Shown here piece by piece: positions 11,602-58,703 of a stretch of 64,000 nt of DNA. How positions within the stretch are numbered: position 1 is the stretch's first letter; every line of letters starts with the position of its first letter. The DNA comes from Desulfonatronum lacustre DSM 10312 (GTDB lineage: Bacteria > Desulfobacterota > Desulfovibrionia > Desulfovibrionales > Desulfonatronaceae): contig NZ_KI912608.1 of NCBI RefSeq assembly GCF_000519265.1, forward strand, positions 1,669,582-1,733,581, in the 5' to 3' direction. The translations under genes and the position numbers were made by a program. The notes under the pieces were generated by a model, which did no database searches, was not told the DNA's origin, and saw only the letters and a list, made by a program, of their open reading frames with translations.

Positions 11602-11702
11602 GATCGAAATCGGTATCGAAATCGAAATCGAGAAAAACAAGTACGTCATTGAATAACGGCAATTCCGATTTCGATTTCGATTCCGATTTCGATTTCGATA
11701 CC
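11602..11702. repeat. Hexanucleotide palindrome A (subfamily I, reversed orientation)
   Basis: The left arm (11602-11631) is tandem GAAATC/GTATCG-type hexamers. The right arm (11661-11702) is the complementary GATTTC/GATTCC series. The loop between them reads GAGAAAAACAAGTACGTC followed by ATTGAATAACGG. Its reverse complement resembles the loops of elements C and D. It fills the gap between the lone receiver gene and the PotD-like gene. Confidence 0.85.
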
Positions 11703-12140: not shown

Positions 12141-15100
12141 TTCATCCTCCTCTCCGCGTACGCCAAGAGCCGGCGATATGCCTCTCGCAACCGTTCCAGG
12201 ACCGCTTGACCGTCCGCACGTTCTTTCGCCGGTTCTTCGGCCAGTTCTTCCCTTCGACCGATCCGTTCCATATCCCTGGCCGCCCCGGCCAGTTCCTTCG
12301 CCAGCAGATTGGCGGCTCCGCCTTTGATGGCATGGGCCTGCTCGACCAGGCTTCCGTGATCCCCCGAGACCAGAGCCTCTTCCATCACCGGTATCTGCCG
12401 GGCCACATTGTCCAGAAACCCTTGCAGGACCTCCTCCAGCAGTTCAGCATCCCCTTCGAATTCCTCCACGGCCCGTTGATAATCCATGGGCTCGCCACTG
12501 GAATCGGTCGTTTCAGGCTGGGTCGTGCTAGGCAGGGTCGTTTTAGGCTGAACGGAAACCAAGACAGCCTTTGCCTCCACCTCCGGCGACCCGGGCGTCC
12601 CGATCCACTTGGCCACCATGGCCAACAACTCCTCCCGCCGCATGGGCTTGGTCAAATAATCGTCCATCCCCGCAGCCAGGCACTTCTCCCGATATCCCAC
12701 CACCGCATGGGCGGTCATGGCGATGATTGGAATTCTGGGATACTGGGATGCTGGAATGCTGGAATACTGGGATGTTGGGATGTTGGGATGCTGGGATACA
12801 GTTTGTGCGGAATTCGTCTCCCTGGAATCATGGCCGGAGAAATATGAAATGCCAAGGTCGCTCTTCTGATCAATTCCAGCATTCCAGGATTCCAGCATCC
12901 CAGCATTTTCTTCTTCCAACTTCCTGATCTCCCTCGTCGCGTCCCAGCCGTCCATGATCGGCATTTGCACGTCCATCAGGATCAAATCGTACGGCTTCTT
13001 TTGAAAGGCCCGGACGGCCTGGAGGCCGTTTTCAGCCACGTCCACGACGTAGCCCGCTCCGTACAGGTGGTGCAGAGCCACTTGCCGATTGGTGGGGTAG
13101 TCCTCCACCAGGAGAATCCGGCCCTGGGACGTGCTGGATGTTGGAACGGTCATGACGCCGGGCGGAGATTCCGTATCCTTTCGTGGCGTGGGTGCGTCCA
13201 ATTCGAAAGGCTTTTGGAGCTCCAGGACAAAGCTGAAGGTGCTGCCCTGGTTCTCCACGCTTTCCAGGAAGATAATTCCGCCCATTAATTCCACGAATCG
13301 CTTGCAAATGGCCAACCCCAGGCCCGTTCCGCCGTATTCCCGTGTCGTGGAGCCGTCCACCTGAGTGAAACTTTCGAAAATATGGGCGTGTTTGTGCACC
13401 GGAATTCCGATGCCCGTGTCCCGGACCTCAAATCGAACCCGAGCCGTGTCGTCGCGAATCTCCAACAAGTCCGCGGAAATCGACACTTCCCCGGCATGGG
13501 TGAACTTGATCGCGTTCCCGCCAAGATTCAGCAATACTTGGCGCAACCGGCCCGCGTCTCCCAACAGGGACGAGGGGATTTCCGGGGTGACGCGAGAGGT
13601 GAACCGCAGCCCTTTACGCCGGGCCAGCACGGCCAGGGACTCCTCCACCTGACGGAACACGGCCCGCAAATCAAAGACCGTCGATTCCAACTCAAGATGC
13701 CCGGCTTCGATCTTGGAGAAGTCCAGAATGTCATTGATGATGCCCATCAACGCTTCGACCTCTCCGGAGATGGTCCGCAGGGCCAGTTGCGGAGGAACCG
13801 TGCTCCCCTTGCCCCGCGCAAGCTCGGCCATGCCCATGATCGCGTTCAGCGGGGTCCGGATTTCATGGCTCATATTGGCCAGAAACTGACTCTTGGCCCG
13901 TGTCGCTTCCTCGGCCTGGGCCAGAGCGGCATCCAACTCAAGGTTCTTACGGGTCAGCTTCCGGGCCGAATCCAACATTTTCTCTTCGACTTTTCGACGA
14001 TCCGTGACATCCAGAATGAATCCATCCAGAAAAACGGTCCGCCCTTGCGCGTCCCGAACCTCACCGCCTTTTTCGTAGACCCAACGTTCGCCCCCGTCAC
14101 GATGCAGCACCCGGTACTCCACTTCCCACGGAACGCCGTCGGCGACGGCCTGGGCCACGGACCGGACGACATATTCCAGGTCGTCGGGATGGATGACGTC
14201 CCGATGGTTCAGAGCGGGACTCGGACCTAAAAAATCTCGCGCCGAAAAGCCGATGATCGCCTCGACGGGATCGCTGACGAACAGCAAGGCGCGTCCCTTT
14301 CCGGCATCCCGACGGTAGGTGGCGCCGGGAATATTGTCGACCAGGGACTGGAATTGGTTGCGACTGTCCCGCAAGGCTTGGGTCCGCTCGGTGATCAGTC
14401 GCTGGAGCTGTTCGCGGCGATGGACCATTACGCCCACCACCAACCCGACGGCCCCGGTCATCATCAAACCGGACAGGGCCGCCAGCCAGCCGACCATGAT
14501 CGGATTGAGCCTCTCAAAGACCCGGGTCGGACGGACCTCCAGGGCGTAAGTCTTGTCAAAGGCCATCACCGGCCTGGTCAGGGCGAAAGAGGCGTACCGT
14601 CGCGAACCGCCGTGCTCCGCGGTGGTTCCCAGCAATATTTTGCCCTGGTCCGGATGCAGTTGATAAAAGTTGATGAACGTCAGGGACTCGCCGCCGGCCC
14701 CGGAATCCGCGTCCAACGCGCCTTGAACCAGGGACTCCGCGTCGACGAGTTCAAGCAGGGAGGCCAAGCCGGGACTTTCGCTTTCGGTAAGATACTGGAA
14801 ATTGTCGAGAATATTGGCCGACTTGACGTCGGCCAGCAAGGAAAAAGTCTTGAAATGGTTTCGATATTCGGCTCGGTGCAGGGTCCGGGAGACGGCCACG
14901 GTCAGGATGAGTCCGACGAGTACGGTCAGCACGGCTTCCAGAGGGAGCCCGGCTTTCCGGGCTTCGGCCTCCCGCTCCCGACGAGCGGCCAGCAGCATAT
15001 ATCCGATCATCAACACGGCGGCCAGAACCAGGGTCATCACAGCCGGAAAAATTCCGGCCCGCATCGCGGACCACCGCCAGTCCCCGGCCTCCACGTCGAT

Positions 15101-19203: not shown

Positions 19204-19360
19204 AACGACTCAGTACATTTTGCGTCCGCTCTTGCGCCGGCAATCGGGGTCGGTATCGGAATCGAAACAGGACAAATTTTGAACGCATCCCCACATTTTC
19301 GATCCCGATTCCGATTCCGATACCGACCCCGGCAACAGAATTACTCAATGCTGAGTAGTT
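19204..19360. repeat. Hexanucleotide palindrome B (subfamily II)
   Basis: The outer ends are AACGACTCAG (19204-19213) and CTGAGTAGTT (19351-19360), an inverted repeat with one mismatch. Inside, hexamer arms (GGTATCGGAATCGAAAC type; right arm GATTCC/GATACC) enclose the loop AGGACAAATTTTGAACGCA. The same ends, loop and CCGGCAA shoulders recur in element G. Together with the 28-bp palindrome it accounts for most of the 400-bp gap between cheY and cheA. Confidence 0.87.
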
Positions 19361-20137: not shown

Positions 20138-20234
20138 TTCGGTATCGAAATCGAGATCGGAATCGCTCTCGACGTCCTTCAATAATGTACTGTTTTTTCT
20201 CAATTTCGATACCGATTTCGATTTCGATTTCGAG
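20138..20234. repeat. Hexanucleotide palindrome C (subfamily I)
   Basis: The left arm of GAAATC/GAGATC/GGAATC hexamers (20138-20172) is complementary to the right arm GATACC/GATTTC (20201-20234). The loop GACGTCCTTCAATAATGTAC is followed by TGTTTTTTCTC. Flanks starting CATGACACA (20114) and ending CCTGACACC are shared with element A in reverse. It lies between the VELF-tail protein stop and the STAS start. Confidence 0.87.
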
Positions 20235-25384: not shown

Positions 25385-25454
25385 CTCGGAGTCGAAATCG
25401 CTATCGTCATCCAACGACATACCTGTTTTTCTCGATTTCGATTTCGATTTCGAA
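25385..25454. repeat. Hexanucleotide palindrome D (subfamily I, shortened)
   Basis: A short left arm (GGAGTCGAAATCGCTATCG), loop TCATCCAACGACATACC then TGTTTTTCTC, and right arm GATTTC x3 ending CGAACCTGGC. The loop and TGTTTTTCTCGATTTCG shoulder match elements C and (reversed) A. It sits between the proA stop and the nadD start, about 50 bp upstream of nadD. Confidence 0.85.
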
Positions 25455-43286: not shown

Positions 43287-44537
43287 GTGCGAACCGATCT
43301 GAGCGCCAACTGGGGACCGCTTCCTTTCTTTGTCGGCAGGCAGCCCATCTTTGATCAGTCCCAAAAAATCTGGGGCTACCAGCTTTTCCATCGGGCCACC
43401 GCCGCCTCGGTGGCCGCCAGCTTTGAGGATGGCGAGGAAGCCACCCTGGAGATCATTCGCAACATCGCGATGAATCCGCTCCTCGATCCCCATGGCCAGA
43501 CCAAAAACCTGATTACCTTCACCAGGGAGAATGTGGTCCGGAGCGCACCCTTTGCCATGCCTCCGGGCAAAACCGTGGTCAAATATATCGGCTCCCGGGC
43601 CGAATCATCCATCCAGAAACAGCTTCAGGAATTGCGCACGGCTGGGTATCTTCTGGCCTGGGAGGACGACGCCGAAGCTGTCGTGCCGGAGGTTTCTGGG
43701 CTCGACATCCTGATTCTGGACGCCATGACCGTTCCGGAAAATCGAATTCCCGGCATGATCCACGCCGCCCACGCCGCGAATGTCCTGGTCATGGCCAAGC
43801 GGGTCGAGACCCATGCGATTTTCGAACAATTGAAGCGTCACGGCGTGAGCTTGTTTCAAGGCTTCTTTTTCCAAAAGCCGGAAACCTTCCACGGGCCGCG
43901 CCTGACACCCCACCACGCCTTGCGGTTTAAACTTCTCGCGATTCTCAACGAGGACCCGCCCAATCCGGACAAGTTGGCCGATATTCTGGAAAAGGACGTC
44001 GCTCTCAGCTATCGCCTGTTGCGGTACGTCAACTCCGCCCGTTTCAGCCCGGTGACCAAGATCACCTCCATCCGCAGGGCCCTGTCCTTCATCGGCCTGA
44101 AGCACGTCCGGCACATGCTTGAAGTCATTTTGGTCAAGGAAACCACCCTGCCCGGCAAAACCCACGAACTGCCCTTTTCCGCCGCCTTGCGCGGCAAGTT
44201 CCTGCAGTCCGCGGCCTCCGGACGCTCTCCTGAAAACGTCACCCCGGAGTCCCTTTTCTTACTGGGCCTGCTTTCCCTGCTGGAAGCCTTGTTGGACCTG
44301 CCCATGCCGGACATCCTGCGCAACCTCCCCCTGGACGACGATTTCAAAGCCGGTTTGTGCCGACAAGCGGGGAGCCCGTATCTGCCCTGGTTGAAACTGG
44401 CCGACGCCTTTGAACGCTCGAACTGGGACGAAGCGGACGCCTGCATCAACGAACTCGGCCTGGACCCGCTCAGGGTAGCCTCCAGTTACGCCGAAGCCGT
44501 GGATTGGACCCAGACGTTCTTCCAACATGCCTACTGA
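43287..44537 (+). CDS. EAL-like/HDOD signalling protein, paralogue 1
   Basis: 416 residues starting at GTG, with GGAG eight bases upstream. The N-terminal half is a degenerate EAL-like domain (FVGRQPIFDQSQKIWGYQLFHR) in which the catalytic EAL glutamate position is Gln and the metal ligands are not recognisable. The C-terminal half is an HDOD domain (LADILEKDVALSYRLLRYVNSA, IRRALSFIGLKHVR). It resembles the YuxH/CdgJ type, which acts by protein interaction and not as a phosphodiesterase. A closely similar paralogue lies 1.6 kb downstream, on the far side of a PilZ gene. Confidence 0.9.
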   Translation: MRTDLSANWGPLPFFVGRQPIFDQSQKIWGYQLFHRATAASVAASFEDGEEATLEIIRNIAMNPLLDPHGQTKNLITFTRENVVRSAPFAMPPGKTVVKYIGSRAESSIQKQLQELRTAGYLLAWEDDAEAVVPEVSGLDILILDAMTVPENRIPGMIHAAHAANVLVMAKRVETHAIFEQLKRHGVSLFQGFFFQKPETFHGPRLTPHHALRFKLLAILNEDPPNPDKLADILEKDVALSYRLLRYVNSARFSPVTKITSIRRALSFIGLKHVRHMLEVILVKETTLPGKTHELPFSAALRGKFLQSAASGRSPENVTPESLFLLGLLSLLEALLDLPMPDILRNLPLDDDFKAGLCRQAGSPYLPWLKLADAFERSNWDEADACINELGLDPLRVASSYAEAVDWTQTFFQHAY

Positions 44538-45707: not shown

Positions 45708-45817
45708 ATCAAAATCCAAATCGCGATCGAAATCGGAAATATTGTGCATCACCCCCTGATAACGCCGTCTTTTTGGATATGTTCGATTTCGATCACGATT
45801 TCGATACCGATTCAGAT
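45708..45817. repeat. Hexanucleotide palindrome E (subfamily III)
   Basis: Left arm AAATCGCGATCGAAATCGG, loop ATTGTGCATCACC...ACGCCGTCTTTTTGG, right arm GATTTC/GATCAC/GATTTC/GATACC. The loop words TGTGCATCA, ACG, TCTT and TTGG, and the GATCAC hexamer, are shared with element H. Outer GAGAACA copies flank it (within 45697-45706 and at 45829-45835). It lies between divergent PilZ and HDOD genes; 45840-46104 shows nothing further. Confidence 0.83.
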
Positions 45818-46104: not shown

Positions 46105-47349
46105 ATGCGCCCATCTCCCCCACCACCTCCATCCGTACAATCCTGCTTTTTCGCCCGCCATCCCATATTCGACCGGAACATGAAACTGTGGGGCTATCAA
46201 CTGTTGTACAGGGACTGCGAACAGGCCGAGTCCGCGCGGTTTGAGGACCAAGACCAGGCCACGGTGCAAGTCGTCCTGGAAGCGGCGGCATCCCCGAGTC
46301 TGGGGCCGGCCCGCGACACATACCTGCTGATGGAATTTTCGATCACGGCCCTGGTCCACGAGGTCCCCTACGCCCTGCCGCCGCACAACATGATCATCAA
46401 GCTGACCCCCAGCCTTTGCCGGGACGGGACTGTGCCCGGCGTAATCACCGAACTACGCGCGACGGGTTACCGGCTGGCCCTGGACGGTCCGCTGGACTCT
46501 TGTCATCACGTCCTGGCCGAAGCGGATTACCTTATCGTGGACGCCCTGATCGAGTCCTCGGAGGCATTCACCCAAGCCATGAACGCCGCGACCCGAACCG
46601 GCATTCCGGTCCTGGTCAAACGGATCGAAACGCCGAAGGCCTTTGCCGAGGCCAAGCGGCTGGGGGCGGAGTTCTTTCTGGGCTTTTTCTTCCAGAAGCC
46701 CGAAGTCATTGCCTCGAAAAAGCTTTCCTCCATCCAGGTCGTCCGGCTGAAATTGTTGAAAATGTTGAACAACAAAAATGTAGACTGGAATGAAATCGCC
46801 AAGACCCTCCAAAACGACGTGTCCTTGACGTATCGGCTGCTCAAGTTTCTCAATTCTCCCTTTTTCGGCGTGATCCAGCCCATCACCACGGTGCAGCGGG
46901 CCGTCGCCTACCTGGGCGCGAAACAAGCCAGAATCTGGTTGCGCATGGTCATTCTCACGGATCTCTGTCCTCCTGAAAAAACCTCCCAGCTTCCCTTGCT
47001 CTCGGCCCACCGAGCGCGATTTCTGGAACTCGCGGGTTCAGACCGTTCGGACGTGGACCCTGACGAACTGTTCCTGCTGGGCCTGTTTTCCCTGCTGGAC
47101 GTCATGTTCGACATGTCCATGCCGGACTTGGTGGACTTCCTGCCGTTGACCGACGCCCTCAAGGCGACACTCTGCGGCCGCCCAAGCCCCTTTGCTCCCT
47201 GGCTGGAACTGGCCGCCCAATTTGAACAGGGTCAATGGGACCGCGTGGATGTCCTGGCGGCTCAACTGGACCTGAATCCGATCCAGGTCGGCACCTGTTA
47301 CGCCCAAGCCATGACCTGGGCCGAAGAATTTTTCCGGATGGCCGGGTGA
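46105..47349 (+). CDS. EAL-like/HDOD signalling protein, paralogue 2
   Basis: 414 residues of the same architecture as the product of 43287-44537: a degenerate EAL-like half (FFARHPIFDRNMKLWGYQLLYR, Gln again at the catalytic position, then LVKRIETPKAFAEAKRLG and FFLGFFFQKPEV) and an HDOD half (IAKTLQNDVSLTYRLLKFLNS, VQRAVAYLGAKQAR). The N-terminus has a proline run (PSPPPPPS). GAAGGA precedes the ATG. It ends 49 bp before a receiver-PAS-kinase gene, so the pair is probably one transcript. Confidence 0.9.
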   Translation: MRPSPPPPPSVQSCFFARHPIFDRNMKLWGYQLLYRDCEQAESARFEDQDQATVQVVLEAAASPSLGPARDTYLLMEFSITALVHEVPYALPPHNMIIKLTPSLCRDGTVPGVITELRATGYRLALDGPLDSCHHVLAEADYLIVDALIESSEAFTQAMNAATRTGIPVLVKRIETPKAFAEAKRLGAEFFLGFFFQKPEVIASKKLSSIQVVRLKLLKMLNNKNVDWNEIAKTLQNDVSLTYRLLKFLNSPFFGVIQPITTVQRAVAYLGAKQARIWLRMVILTDLCPPEKTSQLPLLSAHRARFLELAGSDRSDVDPDELFLLGLFSLLDVMFDMSMPDLVDFLPLTDALKATLCGRPSPFAPWLELAAQFEQGQWDRVDVLAAQLDLNPIQVGTCYAQAMTWAEEFFRMAG

Positions 47350-48891: not shown

Positions 48892-50088
48892 CTATTCCAC
48901 CGGGAACAGGGCTTGGATTTCGGGGCTGACGACCTGATCCCGGCGCATGGCCGCCAGCGCGGCCCTGGCCCCCTGGTCGTCGCCGAGAAAAATCCCGCCG
49001 AGCATCCGGCCCTGATCGTGGACCACCTTGCGGTACAGGCCTTTTGCTTGGTCCTGGAAGATCAGGGATTCGTGGCGGCCCTCGGCGTCGATCTCGCCGA
49101 AGGCGGTCAGGGCGATTCCGGCCACCTTCAAGGAGTTGCTCGGCATGGTGCCCGCATACTCCGCCGGCCCTCCGGCCATGTTCGTTCCGGCGACCCGGCC
49201 CTGCTCCACCGCCGCCGGCCAGATCCCGTAATACCGGCCCCGGTGCTCGCAGACATCACCGGCGGCGTATACATTCGCCAAGGAGGTCCGCATCCGGTCG
49301 TCCACCAGCACGGCCTTGTCCACGGCCAACCCGAGCTTCCGTGCCAGTCCCAGTTCCGGACGCACCCCGGCGGAAATCAGGATCATGTCCGCCGTCAAAC
49401 GAGTTCCGTTGTCCAGGCGAATCTCCAGGCCGTCAGGCATCCGGGCGATCTGTTCGGTCTTCCTGCCCAGGTGAAAGGCGAATCCCATGTTTTCCAGCAA
49501 CTCCTGAAGCAGCTTCGCTCCCTGGAGATCGGTCTGCCGGGGCAGCAGACGCGGGAAAACCTCCACCACCTCCACATGGGCGCCGGTCCGGCGCAGGCCG
49601 TTTCCAGCCTCCAACCCCAACAGGCCCCCGCCGATCAGTGCAACCCGTCGCCCCTTGCCCGCCACGGCCTTAATCCTCTCCGCATCGGCCATGGTCCGCA
49701 AGGTGAACACTTTCGATGTCACCTTCTGATCGTCGGTTCCGGGAATGGGCGGAACGAATGCGTTGCCGCCCGTAGCCAGGAGCAAAGCGTCGTAGCCTAC
49801 CTCCTCGCCCTCCGCCGTGGTCACGAGACGGCGTTCAGGGTTGGCGTCCTGGACCGGGCAGTCCAATCGCAAGTCAATTCCAAGTCGCTCATACCACTGG
49901 GGGCCATGGACAATCAGCTTTCCCGCGGCCTTTTCCCCGGACACCAATTCCGGCAAGGCCGGGGTGTAGTAGTGGCCTTGGGATTCGCGGGAAAACATCA
50001 CCACCGACGCGCTCTGATCCTGTTTACGGATCGCCTCGGCGGCGCTGTTGGCCGCGGGCCCGTTGCCGATGATCACGAAGCGCTTCAT
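48892..50088 (-). CDS. FAD/NAD(P)-dependent oxidoreductase
   Basis: 398 residues with an N-terminal FAD-binding GxGxxA motif (IIGNGPAANSAAEAI), an NAD(P)-binding GGGLLGLEAG (about 152-162) and the FAD-ribityl motif VYAAGDVCE. It is the rubredoxin/nitrite-reductase-like group of pyridine nucleotide-disulfide oxidoreductases without the redox CxxxxC. The electron acceptor is unknown. Its ATG overlaps the stop of the deoxyhypusine-synthase-like gene by ATGA, so the two proteins are made together. Confidence 0.88.
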   Translation of the reverse strand: MKRFVIIGNGPAANSAAEAIRKQDQSASVVMFSRESQGHYYTPALPELVSGEKAAGKLIVHGPQWYERLGIDLRLDCPVQDANPERRLVTTAEGEEVGYDALLLATGGNAFVPPIPGTDDQKVTSKVFTLRTMADAERIKAVAGKGRRVALIGGGLLGLEAGNGLRRTGAHVEVVEVFPRLLPRQTDLQGAKLLQELLENMGFAFHLGRKTEQIARMPDGLEIRLDNGTRLTADMILISAGVRPELGLARKLGLAVDKAVLVDDRMRTSLANVYAAGDVCEHRGRYYGIWPAAVEQGRVAGTNMAGGPAEYAGTMPSNSLKVAGIALTAFGEIDAEGRHESLIFQDQAKGLYRKVVHDQGRMLGGIFLGDDQGARAALAAMRRDQVVSPEIQALFPVE

Positions 50089-51218
50089 GCTTGTTTCTCC
50101 CGCGCGGTGTCAGAGCTCGCCTCGGCGGCGTGGCCGGCCCCACGCTTGGCCAAACGTTGTTCCAGGGCCTTGATCAGCAAAGGCCAGACCAGGGTCGCGT
50201 CGCTGGGCACCTCCGCGTGCCGCCCGCCGTCCTTGGGCGCGACGAACTTGCCCCAGGAGACGCCCTCCTGGTACGTGCAGCCGCTCAAACCGCCCCAGTG
50301 CACCGGTTCCGGACAGATCCGCACGGCGTAGTGAAAGCGCCGGGCCGTGGTCTTCATGGACTCGACGCGCTGGCTGAGAATTTCCAGAAACGGCCCGACC
50401 TGCTGGGCCCAGTTCCGGGGCACGCCTCCACCAATGGTGAAGATCCCGATCCGTTTGGCCCCCAGAATTCGTTTGGTGTAGCTGAACAGGTCCAGAAACG
50501 GATTGAACTGAAAGGGGAGCTTGCCCGGCTCGTCGATGTCCAGGGACTGCCACTCCGGGTGGTTGCGCAGCATGTACGAAGCCACGTCCAAGGCCAGCTC
50601 CGAATCCGTGAAGGCCGGGATATACACCGGCACGTCCTTGGCAAAGGCGCTTTTGAGGATACCCGGACCGTCATAATTGTCGGTCAAATGCCGACCGATG
50701 GCCCGGCACAGACTCTCCGAACTCAAATGGGCGTCGGCACCCACTTCTTCCATCACCCGGGCGATGACCCGTTCGGCCTGCATGAAATTGGTTTCCGGTT
50801 CCAGGGTGTCGTAAACCCGATTGTAGCCCTTTTCGAACAGCGCCGCGTCGTTCATCCGGTGCGGTTCGTGCTTATAGTGGCGCAGCCCGATGGATTCGAT
50901 GAATCCATGGGCCATCAGCGCCCCGGTGGACACGATGATATCCAGCCAGCCGTTGTCGATCATCCGGCACAGCACCTTGCCCATCTTGGCCACGGTCATC
51001 GCCCCGGAAAAGGTCCCCACCACCAAGCATTCCGGATCGCTGACCATGGCCTCCAGAACGTCCAGAGCCTCACCCAGACAGCGCCCGCCGAACGCGGTGC
51101 GGGACATGGCCGTCACCAGTTCGTCGAAATCCTCCACGGCATCCAAATCAAGGGTTTTCAGGGGCGTCAAGCCGTCTTCCTCTCCACTGTGCAAGGTGTC
51201 GATACGTCGAATGTTCAT
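50085..51218 (-). CDS. Deoxyhypusine synthase-like protein 1
   Basis: 377 residues of the deoxyhypusine synthase family: GTFSGAMTVAKMG near the N-terminus, FTIGGGVPRNWAQQ, and EGVSWGKF with the Glu-x3-Trp-x-Lys arrangement of the active-site lysine that carries the aminobutyl group. Bacteria lack eIF5A, so bacterial members probably make homospermidine or related polyamines, or act otherwise. A pyruvoyl arginine decarboxylase gene lies 300 bp upstream. Three tandem 13-bp copies containing AAGGAG precede the start. It is translationally coupled to the oxidoreductase gene. Confidence 0.88.
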   Translation of the reverse strand: MNIRRIDTLHSGEEDGLTPLKTLDLDAVEDFDELVTAMSRTAFGGRCLGEALDVLEAMVSDPECLVVGTFSGAMTVAKMGKVLCRMIDNGWLDIIVSTGALMAHGFIESIGLRHYKHEPHRMNDAALFEKGYNRVYDTLEPETNFMQAERVIARVMEEVGADAHLSSESLCRAIGRHLTDNYDGPGILKSAFAKDVPVYIPAFTDSELALDVASYMLRNHPEWQSLDIDEPGKLPFQFNPFLDLFSYTKRILGAKRIGIFTIGGGVPRNWAQQVGPFLEILSQRVESMKTTARRFHYAVRICPEPVHWGGLSGCTYQEGVSWGKFVAPKDGGRHAEVPSDATLVWPLLIKALEQRLAKRGAGHAAEASSDTAREKQA

Positions 51219-51229
51219 GTCGTCTAACG

Positions 51230-51265
51230 TTGCTCCTTGGAGTTGCTCCTTGGAGTTGCTCCTTG
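51230..51265 (-). repeat. Tandem 13-bp repeat carrying three AAGGAG motifs
   Basis: Two full copies and one partial copy of TTGCTCCTTGGAG. Read on the minus strand they give AAGGAGCAAC three times, each a potential ribosome-binding site for the gene starting at 51218. The nearest lies 14 bp from the ATG. Confidence 0.7.
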
Positions 51266-51292
51266 TAATACCATTTCCAATTCAAAGTTTCT

Positions 51293-51400
51293 CTACCGGT
51301 ATCGGTATCGGAGTCGGAATCGGAATCGGGGTCGAATTAATGGTATAGGCGAACACACAGTATCGATCCCGAAAGCGATACCGACGCCGACACCGATAAC
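51293..51400. repeat. Hexanucleotide palindrome F
   Basis: Left arm GGTATC/GGAGTC/GGAATC/GGGGTC hexamers (51293-51335), loop of about 25 bp, right arm GATCCC/GATACC/GACGCC/GATAAC (51361-51400), less perfectly paired than B or G. Its loop matches neither subfamily clearly. It lies between the arginine decarboxylase terminator and the deoxyhypusine-synthase-like gene. This gap (51219-51526) has no ORF. Confidence 0.8.
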
Positions 51401-51462
51401 TACATTTTCTCAAGCGAATAACGCATGATCGGAACAAAATGGAATAGTACGGAACCGCCCCC

Positions 51463-51500
51463 AAAAAAAAGGGCCGAGGGAAGCGGATTCACCTCGGCCC
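51463..51500 (-). terminator. Rho-independent terminator for the arginine decarboxylase gene
   Basis: On the minus strand GGGCCGAGG pairs with CCTCGGCCC across 12 bases and is followed by eight T (complement of 51463-51470). It begins 26 bp after the decarboxylase stop. Confidence 0.9.
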
Positions 51501-51526
51501 GTTAACGGCGTTTTTTAAGTGCGGCC

Positions 51527-52075
51527 TCAGGGGAGGAACACCGCGGCGGAAACCGTGGTGGTCCAGACCCCGGCTTGCCCCATGGTCACAACCGGGGCCG
51601 AGGCCGAGTCGATGATTTTCCCGCTCATCAGATAGATTTGCCGTCTTTCGTCATAAGCGGTCTCCGGGTTGAAGTCCACGCCCTGGGTTGTGGCCAGCAT
51701 GGTGGAGGCCAGGTCTTCGGCAAAGTCGCCCAGTTCCTGCTCATCGGCCCCAAAGGCGGTATGCTCGGAAATGTAGCCGTAGTGCTCCTTGCTGGCCGGA
51801 AAGGCCATGCCCACGGCCGACCCCACCAAACGCCCCTTCTCGTTGGTGGCGTTACGGGCCATCACGCAAAAGGTGATCTGTCCCGGACTGAGCTGCTTCA
51901 CCCCTTCTTCCACTGTGACCATTTTGCAGTTTGGAGGGAAGATACTGGACACATAGACCAGATTCAGCTTTTCGATCCCGGCGTCGCGCAACGCCAACTC
52001 GAACGACTGAAGTTTGTTTTTGTGTCTGCCGATGCCCCTGGTGAAAAATGCCTGCCGTGGTACAAAATTGATCAT
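51527..52075 (-). CDS. pdaD: Pyruvoyl-dependent arginine decarboxylase
   Basis: 182 residues from MINFVPRQAFF, where TAGGAGGATCGAAT precedes the ATG. The family signature VYVSSIFPPN holds the self-cleavage site between Ser43 and Ser44; the second serine becomes the pyruvoyl cofactor. GYISEHTAFG is also conserved. It converts arginine to agmatine. Its own terminator follows. Neighbouring argS and the deoxyhypusine-synthase-like gene suggest a polyamine setting. Some family members decarboxylate other substrates. Confidence 0.92.
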   Translation of the reverse strand: MINFVPRQAFFTRGIGRHKNKLQSFELALRDAGIEKLNLVYVSSIFPPNCKMVTVEEGVKQLSPGQITFCVMARNATNEKGRLVGSAVGMAFPASKEHYGYISEHTAFGADEQELGDFAEDLASTMLATTQGVDFNPETAYDERRQIYLMSGKIIDSASAPVVTMGQAGVWTTTVSAAVFLP

Positions 52076-52125: not shown

Positions 52126-52848
52126 TCATAAGGATTTTTTGGCCCGAAGGAAAGGGTCCGCGATGCCCAAACCCTGAAGCCGCGACTTGGCCAGGTCCGC
52201 CTCGGCCTGCGAGCCGCGCACCGTGACCAACACCCGATACCATTGCCGATCATTGACCATTCCAGCTTCCACGGACGCCGACAGTCCCGTGGAGGCAATG
52301 TTTTGCTGCAACGCCCTGGCCTGGCTGTCATTCTGAAACGAGGCCACTTGATAGACGAACTCAAAACGCGGTCCTGCCGGTTCCAGAGGTTCCGCAAGCC
52401 CTGCCTGTCCAGTCGGGCCAGTCGGGCCAGTCGGTTCGGGCGCGGCGACGACCGGAGCCGGGGCGTGATCAGGCGCGGCCTCCCGCTGGGCCTGAGGAGT
52501 CTGCCGGACTGGAGCCGAAACCCGCGGCGGTTCGACTCGGCGGGGCGCTTCAGGGGAGGGTTGGCTGCCCCGTTCCTGAAGCGTCTCGTGAAATCGCAGT
52601 TCCTCGGGCTGCAAAACGGTTCGCGGCGTGGAGAGCGTCGGCAGTTTGGCGGACTCCCAACCGATTTCCGGAATCACCGACTCCGGATGGTATCCTCTGC
52701 CAACCAGAATGCCCAAAATGAACGCCCAGGCCATGACCAAAGTGCCCACCAATCCCACGCCGAGCATCCCAAAGGGACCCAGTTCAAACCGCCAGCGTTT
52801 CTTCTTTCCGCCGGGGGAAGTCGAGGGTTTGGAGTTCTTCTGCGCCAT
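52126..52848 (-). CDS. SPOR-domain membrane protein
   Basis: 240 residues: a basic cytoplasmic N-terminus, one membrane helix (about 27-50), a long Pro/Ala-rich periplasmic linker with TGPTGPTG (a 9-bp DNA tandem near 52425) and a C-terminal SPOR domain (about 162-235, FVYQVASFQNDSQARALQQNI). SPOR domains bind denuded peptidoglycan at division sites. It lies 12 bp after argS on the same strand; SPOR proteins after argS are a recurring arrangement. Confidence 0.88.
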   Translation of the reverse strand: MAQKNSKPSTSPGGKKKRWRFELGPFGMLGVGLVGTLVMAWAFILGILVGRGYHPESVIPEIGWESAKLPTLSTPRTVLQPEELRFHETLQERGSQPSPEAPRRVEPPRVSAPVRQTPQAQREAAPDHAPAPVVAAPEPTGPTGPTGQAGLAEPLEPAGPRFEFVYQVASFQNDSQARALQQNIASTGLSASVEAGMVNDRQWYRVLVTVRGSQAEADLAKSRLQGLGIADPFLRAKKSL

Positions 52849-54608: not shown

Positions 54609-54777
54609 AACTACTCAGTACATTTTGTGTCCGATCTTGCATCGGCAATCAGTGTCGGGGTCGGTATCGGAGTCGGAATCGAAACAGGAAGAATTTAGAA
54701 CGCACCCCAGCGTTTTCGATCCCGATCCCGATTCCGATTCCGACTCCGGCAACAGAATTTCTCTGTGCTGAGTAGTT
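54609..54777. repeat. Hexanucleotide palindrome G (subfamily II)
   Basis: Perfect terminal inverted repeat AACTACTCAG (54609-54618) / CTGAGTAGTT (54768-54777). Internal parts parallel element B closely: TACATTTTGTGTCCG, CGAAACAGGA, AATTTAGAACGCA, CCCAGCGTTTTCGATCCCG and CCGGCAACAGAATT. The arms are GGTATC/GGAGTC/GGAATC against GATCCC/GATTCC/GACTCC. It fills the gap between the fabD stop and argS start. Confidence 0.9.
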
Positions 54778-57419: not shown

Positions 57420-58442
57420 TTACCAGCCAAGCAAATAGGCAAAGATCAACGGCGCGACGATGGTCGCGTCGGACTCGATAATGAACTTCGGCGTGTCCAC
57501 GCCCAATTTGCCCCAGGTGATCTTCTCGTTAGGGATGGCCCCGGAATAGGAGCCATAGCTGGTGGTGCTGTCGCTGATCTGGCAGAAATACCCCCACAGC
57601 GGAACATCCGTCCGCTCCATGTCCTGGTGAAGCATGGGCACCACGCAGATCGGGAAGTCCCCGGCGATTCCCCCGCCGATCTGAAACATGCCCAGGGGAT
57701 TTTGCTTCGTGGTCTGGGTGTAGTGATCCGCCAGCCAGGTCATATACTCGATCCCGGTGCGCACGGTGTGCACGTTTTTGACCTCGCCCCGCAGCACGGC
57801 CGCGGCGTACATGTTGCCCAAGGTGGAATCCTCCCAACCCGGCACGACCATGGGCACGTTCTTTTCCATGGCCGCCAGCATCCAGGAATCCTTCGGATCA
57901 ATCTGGTAGGACGGAGCCAGGTCTCCGGCGGCCAGGATCTGGCGGAAGAACTCATGAGGAAAGTAGCGCTCCCCCTTGGCGTCCGCCGCGGCCCAGACCT
58001 GGAGCATGGCCTTCTCGATCCGCCGCATGGCCTCCATTTCCGGGATACAGGTGTCCGTGACCCGATTCATGTGCCGGGCCAGCAGTTCCGCTTCGTCCTG
58101 GGGGGTGAGGTCCCGATAATTGGGCACCCGTTCGTAAAAATCGTGGGCCACGAGATTGAAGATGTCCTCCTCCAGATTGGCCCCGGTGCAGACGATCAGA
58201 TGCACCTTGTCCCGACGGATCATCTCGGCCAGGGACAACCCCAGCTCAGCGGTGCTCATGGCCCCGGCCAGGGTGATCATCATCTTCCCGCCGTCGGCCA
58301 GAAAATCGTCGTAGGCCCTTGCCGCGTCGATTAAGGCCGCTGCGTTGAAATGCCGATAATGGTGCGTAATGAACGATCCCACCGGTCCGAGTTTGGCGGT
58401 ATCGCTTGATTTCTTGGATATCGTACTCTCAGCCGAACACAT
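57420..58442 (-). CDS. Deoxyhypusine synthase-like protein 2
   Basis: 340 residues starting MCSAESTISKK, with AAGGAGACTTGGTC before the ATG. Family features: GSFITHHYRHFNAAAL, MITLAGAMSTAELGLSLAEMI, FQIGGGIAGDFPICVVP and NEKITWGKL with the active-site-like lysine in the Glu-x3-Trp-x-Lys arrangement. It differs strongly from the protein at 50085, so the two are separate subgroups and not a recent duplication. Bacterial members of this subgroup are thought to form homospermidine-type polyamines; the substrate is unproven here. Confidence 0.88.
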   Translation of the reverse strand: MCSAESTISKKSSDTAKLGPVGSFITHHYRHFNAAALIDAARAYDDFLADGGKMMITLAGAMSTAELGLSLAEMIRRDKVHLIVCTGANLEEDIFNLVAHDFYERVPNYRDLTPQDEAELLARHMNRVTDTCIPEMEAMRRIEKAMLQVWAAADAKGERYFPHEFFRQILAAGDLAPSYQIDPKDSWMLAAMEKNVPMVVPGWEDSTLGNMYAAAVLRGEVKNVHTVRTGIEYMTWLADHYTQTTKQNPLGMFQIGGGIAGDFPICVVPMLHQDMERTDVPLWGYFCQISDSTTSYGSYSGAIPNEKITWGKLGVDTPKFIIESDATIVAPLIFAYLLGW

Positions 58443-58596
58443 GACCAAGTCTCCTTTGAAACAAAAAGTAGGGTGAATTGCCGATTGCGGCATACGTCAT
58501 GCTTGGGATAGTCGGTGCCAAGACTTCCGTCAATTTTCGAGGCGCTTCAGTCCTGGGCTGATTTCCTCTCGGAAGCAACGGAGAGAACAACATCAA

Positions 58597-58703
58597 GCGA
58601 AATCGAAATCGCTATCGAAATCGGAAGAAAAACTGTGCATCATCGGGATTACGTCATCTTCTTGGCCATGAAGTTCGATTTCGATCACGATTTCGATTTC
58701 GTT
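58597..58703. repeat. Hexanucleotide palindrome H (subfamily III)
   Basis: Left arm GAAATC x2/GCTATC/GAAATC, loop AAGAAAAACTGTGCATCATCG...ACGTCATCTTCTTGG, right arm GATTTC/GATCAC/GATTTC x2. Loop and right arm parallel element E. It occupies the divergent gap between deoxyhypusine-synthase-like gene 2 and the UbiD gene (58443-58786), which holds no other feature. Confidence 0.85.

Follow-up and report, generated by a model that had tools for sequence, protein, structure and literature searches.

A predicted pyruvoyl-dependent arginine decarboxylase and two divergent deoxyhypusine-synthase homologues suggest a route to homospermidine without S-adenosylmethionine in Desulfonatronum lacustre

In Desulfonatronum lacustre DSM 10312, the gene for a predicted pyruvoyl-dependent arginine decarboxylase (pvlArgDC) is followed on the same strand by a gene for a protein of the deoxyhypusine synthase (DHS) family, here called DHS-A, for which we propose a role as homospermidine synthase. 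Both lie in a 64,000-nucleotide stretch of contig NZ_KI912608.1 (positions 1,669,582 to 1,733,581; hereafter the window, whose coordinates are used below), part of a complete 3.76-Mb genome. The order on the minus strand is fabD, argS, a SPOR-domain protein (52126..52848), pvlArgDC (51527..52075), a gap of 308 bases, DHS-A (50085..51218) and an FAD/NAD(P) oxidoreductase (48892..50088). The names fabD and argS were given by eye and from conserved gene order, with no family search behind them; the SPOR-domain protein was recognized by family search, and the same order is seen in relatives. A second, deeply diverged member of the DHS family, DHS-B, is encoded on the minus strand at 57420..58493, 6.2 kb from DHS-A. 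A first-pass annotation, made from the letters of the window, had described the decarboxylase, the neighbouring DHS homologue and the coupling of the latter to the oxidoreductase by an ATGA overlap; all three hold, and the overlap recurs in two relatives (G001 and G003 in our labelling, in which G denotes genomes and L loci or contigs). It overlooked DHS-B, an aguB-aguA gene pair elsewhere in the genome, and a terminator in the gap between pvlArgDC and DHS-A.

The pvlArgDC gene would encode 182 amino acids from an ATG at 52075, which is preceded by AGGAGG; a longer frame extends up to 52243. The protein matches PF01862 with an E-value of 3.4e-57 and 193 bits (cut-off 22.7) and TIGR00286 with 127.9 bits (cut-off 106.95), and falls narrowly below the cut-off of NF009064 (192 versus 207). 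Its sequence VYVSSIFPP aligns to RISSIMPP of 2qqd and contains a Ser-Ser dyad, which we take to be the site of self-cleavage. PvlArgDC thus appears to be a member of the PF01862 arginine decarboxylases, with decarboxylase activity predicted.

DHS-A and DHS-B score 246.8 bits (E 3.5e-73) and 141.8 bits (E 3.6e-41), respectively, against PF01916 (cut-off 27), and are the only matches to this family in the genome. With the numbering of human DHS anchored on K329, the imine-forming lysine, all 91 DHS-A and all 14 DHS-B sequences conserve the equivalents of K329, W327 and E323. Other active-site positions differ from the human enzyme: in DHS-A, D243 and D316 are replaced by Leu, D313 by Trp, H288 by Asn and E137 by His; in DHS-B, D243 is replaced by Asn, D316 and D313 by Tyr, and H288 by Asp. 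The predicted model of DHS-A (predicted local distance difference test score, pLDDT, 90.4; predicted template modelling score, pTM, 0.88) resembles human and archaeal DHS, with template modelling scores of 0.66-0.76 by query length over the 50 PDB matches listed, all of which are deoxyhypusine synthases, despite a sequence identity of only about 20%. The predicted model of DHS-B, based on an alignment of only three sequences, has a pLDDT of 35.7 and says nothing about its fold.

In a phylogenetic tree that carries a long-branch warning, DHS-A and DHS-B form separate clades with support of 100/99 and 100/100; the tree contained neither Thermus thermophilus CdmS nor validated SpeY sequences, so that nearness to either cannot be read from it. 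By DHS-A, the nearest named relative is a Desulfonatronum metagenome-assembled genome, at 94% identity. Of 395 genomes in the phylum, 23 carry DHS-B. It shares mostly 61-70% identity with homologues outside the order (56% in G150) and only 54-57% with those from the remaining genera of its own order, and it groups with sequences from distant families with support of 97/91. DHS-B in Desulfonatronum is most likely a horizontal gain, judging by these sequence relationships. Genes of the DHS-A clade, at 55-57% identity, also occur on contigs labelled Woesearchaeota or Micrarchaeota (L156, L162 and L167); L156 and L162 nest among bacterial sequences.

To place these enzymes in a pathway, we relied on family searches covering the genome of the window and 60 relatives; PF01276 (AAT-fold decarboxylases) and eIF5A models lay outside the set, and the genome may yet hold an ornithine decarboxylase of the AAT fold. 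The first-pass annotation had seen no agmatinase, S-adenosylmethionine (AdoMet) decarboxylase or spermidine synthase in the window. For the first two this extends to the whole genome and to all 8 members of the genus, in which PF00491 (arginase/agmatinase; E 0.001 in the genome of the window) and PF02675 (AdoMet decarboxylase) found no match, as was also the case for PF16653 (carboxyspermidine dehydrogenase/HSS type). PF01564 gave one match in the genome, of 40 bits, to a 527-residue protein with a hydrophobic front half, and we see no convincing spermidine synthase candidate there. The single protein matching PF02784 is LysA (548 bits versus a cut-off of 297.9).

The genome does carry, at 3.33 Mb, an aguB gene directly before an aguA gene, with an overlap of 4 bases. 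AguA matches PF04371 with 376.9 bits (cut-off 25), and agmatine deiminase families are the only ones it matches; the best family of AguB is TIGR03381 (N-carbamoylputrescine amidase), by 180 bits. The pair rules out that the genome has no way from agmatine to putrescine. A complete standard pathway, which the first-pass annotation took as counting against its proposal, is thus present in modified form, with aguB-aguA replacing agmatinase. The genomic context is that of SpeY-type systems: an arginine decarboxylase, enzymes leading from agmatine to putrescine, and no other triamine enzyme among the families searched. The pair is flanked by lipA-like (lipoyl synthase) and lipB-like (lipoyl ligase/transferase) genes (L106, 2118-5755).

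Across the 61 genomes, agmatine deiminase takes the place of the agmatinase-family gene with hardly an exception. Twelve genomes have a match to PF04371 only, 46 to PF00491 only, two to neither (G022 and G046, which are 84-85% complete) and one to both (G030, with a 90-bit fragment); strong aguB matches (283 bits or more) are present in all of the 12 deiminase-only genomes and in no others. DHS homologues likewise replace carboxyspermidine dehydrogenase almost perfectly, with 31 genomes having DHS only, 23 PF16653 only, three both (all of genus g12) and four neither. A full pvlArgDC is found in 36 genomes, 31 of which also have a DHS homologue; of the remaining five, three (G017, G029 and G053) have SpeD, SpeE-type and PF16653 proteins, and two (G049 and G059) are less than 90% complete. 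Among the 13 genomes with a deiminase, two have DHS-A alone (G011, and G030 with its fragment), four DHS-B alone (G002, G006, G036 and G048) and seven both. Assignment was by score bands, plus BLAST where the region had been fetched, with the G050 fragments and a partial second G033 match left unassigned.

Among 80 named DHS-A loci, the top 80 of 292 relatives ranked on DHS-A similarity (some of whose contigs also belong to the 61 genomes), pvlArgDC is present together with SpeB in 15, with a deiminase in 12, with a deiminase and an amidase in one (L145), and without these in four. SpeB alone is found in six, a SpeD-like gene with SpeB in two and alone in four, and a weak amidase in one; the six loci with SpeD-like genes are mostly on planctomycete or Hydrogenedentes contigs. 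The order pvlArgDC-DHS-A-aguA occurs in 13 of the 80, in L145 with aguB too, and in many relatives DHS-A stands directly behind pvlArgDC and speB. The cluster pvlArgDC-speB-DHS-A of Desulfonatronovibrio, Desulfonatronospira and their relatives is the same locus as that of the window: it lies behind fabD-argS-SPOR and its DHS-A is orthologous, at 63-69% identity. It differs in that speB is absent here, the genome having aguB-aguA instead. In 20 DHS-B regions, pvlArgDC lies alongside in L251 and SpeB and pvlArgDC in L253.

The DHS fold of DHS-A, and the catalytic lysine that both homologues share with true DHS, would also suit an enzyme that modifies a protein, as DHS does with eIF5A. The polyamine genes in the neighbourhoods argue against this, and in the papers covered (PMC9992855 and PMC10407285) we met no bacterial DHS homologue that modifies eIF5A; no eIF5A homologue was searched for in the genome. 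We consider this explanation highly improbable.

Taken together, the genes present, the catalytic lysine, the neighbourhoods and the presence/absence patterns are what we observe, and from them we infer each enzymatic step, the product, and a common reaction of DHS-A and DHS-B. On balance, the genome probably encodes a route from arginine via agmatine, N-carbamoylputrescine and putrescine to homospermidine, a triamine that would be made without AdoMet. PvlArgDC, after self-cleavage to form its pyruvoyl cofactor, would decarboxylate arginine to agmatine, which AguA (agmatine deiminase) would convert to N-carbamoylputrescine and AguB (N-carbamoylputrescine amidase) to putrescine. In the last step, carried out by DHS-A, DHS-B or both, one putrescine would be oxidized with NAD; its aminobutyl group, bound to the conserved lysine as an imine, would then be transferred to another putrescine molecule to yield homospermidine. 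The uncommon polyamine envisaged by the first-pass annotation is therefore supported, as homospermidine or a guanidino relative; its inclusion of the oxidoreductase is not, nor do the three genes make up one simple transcription unit, as discussed below.

Whether the DHS homologues act on putrescine is the point at which a second explanation has to be weighed. DHS homologues that join agmatine rather than putrescine exist: CdmS of T. thermophilus accepts only agmatine and is partnered by a ureohydrolase (PMC10981699). By analogy, DHS-A could couple agmatine, after which AguA and AguB (SpeB in relatives) would strip off the guanidino groups, or a guanidino polyamine could be the end product. 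CdmS and DHS-A share the DHS family, the lysine mechanism and a supply of agmatine from an arginine decarboxylase, and the position of DHS-A directly behind pvlArgDC and speB in relatives would fit. The same paper also names 243 and 316 as the two unlike residues of CdmS, which are Phe and Leu, and DHS-A is likewise hydrophobic there. These residues do not settle the substrate, however, because a Sphingomonas DHS-like protein, whose gene adjoins one for a type III pyridoxal phosphate (PLP) enzyme, has Phe and Cys at the same positions, and DHS-B has Asn and Tyr; we rejected them as a discriminator. DHS-A and DHS-B moreover score only 172 and 86.7 bits against the bis-guanidino (caldomycin) synthase model NF002699 (cut-off 500), and no ureohydrolase is present here; CdmS was compared by its description and not by its sequence. 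Coupling of agmatine would also require a deiminase and an amidase that act on the coupled bis-guanidine, and none was met in the literature covered.

DHS-A is kept while the agmatine-removing step is exchanged, being SpeB in most of the order and AguA/AguB in Desulfonatronum and Humidesulfovibrio-type genomes. Since DHS-A occurs with either system and putrescine is their simplest shared product, this favours putrescine as its substrate, and we regard the coupling of agmatine as the less likely explanation, one that nonetheless deserves serious attention. It is doubtful, and slightly more so, that the two homologues differ in substrate, one using agmatine (or N-carbamoylputrescine) to give guanidino- or carbamoyl-homospermidine and the other putrescine, so that the genus would make two related polyamines with AguA and AguB acting both before and after coupling.

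Several observations weigh against the proposed route to homospermidine. No sought polyamine gene lies near DHS-A in 35 of the 80 loci, several of which are on short contigs, and 18 of the 20 DHS-B loci lack a convincing one (in L263 the sole match, to an amidase, has 33 bits). The presence/absence patterns give Fisher p < 1e-8, a value that ignores shared descent and is descriptive only. AguA and AguB remain below the curated cut-offs of TIGR03380 (242.5 versus 381.8) and TIGR03381 (311.3 versus 410.25). DHS-A and DHS-B both fall short of the cut-offs of all curated models for DHS, homospermidine synthase and bis-guanidino (caldomycin) synthase. For the homospermidine biosynthesis protein model NF001980 (cut-off 450) they score 154.8 and 109.4; three DHS-like controls fall below this cut-off too, and we therefore found no positive control for the model. 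Controls did pass elsewhere, those from Trichormus (591.8) and Sphingomonas (564.3) for NF002699 and that from Haloferax for NF003052. Added to these are the agmatine-joining activity of CdmS noted above and the separation of pvlArgDC from DHS-A by a terminator.

This putative intrinsic terminator, at 51463..51500 on the minus strand, lies directly behind pvlArgDC within the 308-base gap and consists of a GC-rich hairpin of −20.9 kcal/mol, GGGCCGAGG...CCTCGGCCC (51500..51471), followed by eight T. A similar hairpin and T run, with changed stems, is found in all six Desulfonatronum copies with DHS-A (the window, G001, G003, G004, G005 and G007), and a hairpin and T run also follow pvlArgDC in G006, which is without DHS-A. 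We found no comparable hairpin in G002 or in any of five copies from other genera (G008, G011, G013, L129 and L131); among the latter the best reaches −9.5 kcal/mol and lies inside the following gene. An automated terminator scan with a loop limit of 8 did not list the site, and a shuffle test over a 71-base stretch gave a weak z of −1.63. Because of the terminator, pvlArgDC, DHS-A and the oxidoreductase do not form one simple operon, and an operon of three pathway genes was ruled out. Most likely, as the sequence suggests, pvlArgDC closes a fabD-argS-SPOR-pvlArgDC unit, and DHS-A and the oxidoreductase form a second one. Before DHS-A, at 51229..51265 on the minus strand, 2.8 exact copies of a 13-bp unit create three tandem Shine-Dalgarno-like AAGGAG sites. 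At the same place G005 has two such sites and G007 has one.

The first-pass annotation had further linked the oxidoreductase (Pyr_redox_2, E 1.9e-56, with Rubredoxin_C) to redox steps of the pathway, and one could imagine it recycling NADH or oxidizing an amine. Its ATGA overlap with DHS-A, and its position next to DHS-A in five of the six Desulfonatronum genomes that have DHS-A, speak for such a role. That placement is limited to the genus, however: the gene is missing behind DHS-A in G004 and in 78 of the 80 named loci, the two exceptions both being Desulfonatronum, and relatives with 45-50% identity elsewhere in the order (G012, G018, G026, G038 and G046) do not lie beside DHS-A. One relative in G018 lies about 9 kb from pvlArgDC, and the neighbours of the homologues in G012 and G018 give no functional hint. 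DHS-type coupling is, moreover, redox-neutral overall, so that no reductase is needed. A working part of the oxidoreductase in the route is thus improbable, and it is most likely a lineage-specific neighbour, probably outside the pathway.

Elsewhere in the window, two mutually similar proteins of 416 and 414 residues, resembling HDOD/EAL-type signalling proteins by eye, are encoded on the plus strand at 43287-44537 and 46105-47349. A degenerate hexamer (CGATTC, ATTTCG, TCGGAA) recurs in runs at 11603-11699, 19300-19331, 20203-20233, 25432-25453, 45784-45812, 51297-51334, 54655-54748 and 58674-58701, those near 51300, 54700 and 58690 being intergenic. The 8-bp repeats CTGGGATG and, facing the opposite way, ATTCCAGC occur within 180 bases at 12728-12907.

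Pathways of this kind have been published. An arginine decarboxylase, AguA/AguB and the DHS-like SpeY lead to homospermidine in Ca. Pelagibacter and others (PMC9992855, PMC10407285), and in Gimesia maris a SpeD-derived decarboxylase is encoded directly upstream of speY, with aguA-aguB elsewhere (PMC10407285). The system described here resembles these in combining an arginine decarboxylase, a deiminase/amidase pair and a DHS homologue, with aguA-aguB elsewhere as in G. maris, and the DHS-A loci with SpeD-like genes resemble the SpeDA-SpeY clusters of PMC10407285. It differs in that its decarboxylase is of the archaeal PF01862 type, that there are two deeply separate DHS homologues, and that the NF001980 cut-off is not reached. 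For sulfate reducers we found no paper on a "pyruvoyl-dependent arginine decarboxylase" together with a DHS-like synthase, and nothing useful on Desulfonatronum and polyamines or on homospermidine and Desulfovibrio; most subscription papers lay outside this coverage, and absence from print is not claimed. What is new is the pairing of pvlArgDC with DHS and two DHS subfamilies not captured by any curated model.

The 2024 work on caldomycin (PMC10981699) opened the question of putrescine versus agmatine use. DHS-A, being shared by genomes with either way of removing agmatine, is an enzyme whose assay would answer it directly. Should DHS-A and DHS-B have split their substrates, a soda-lake genus would make two related polyamines. 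More broadly, the genomes offer a clean natural swap of agmatinase for AguA/AguB with DHS-A unchanged, and homospermidine is probably made without AdoMet across much of this order of sulfate reducers.

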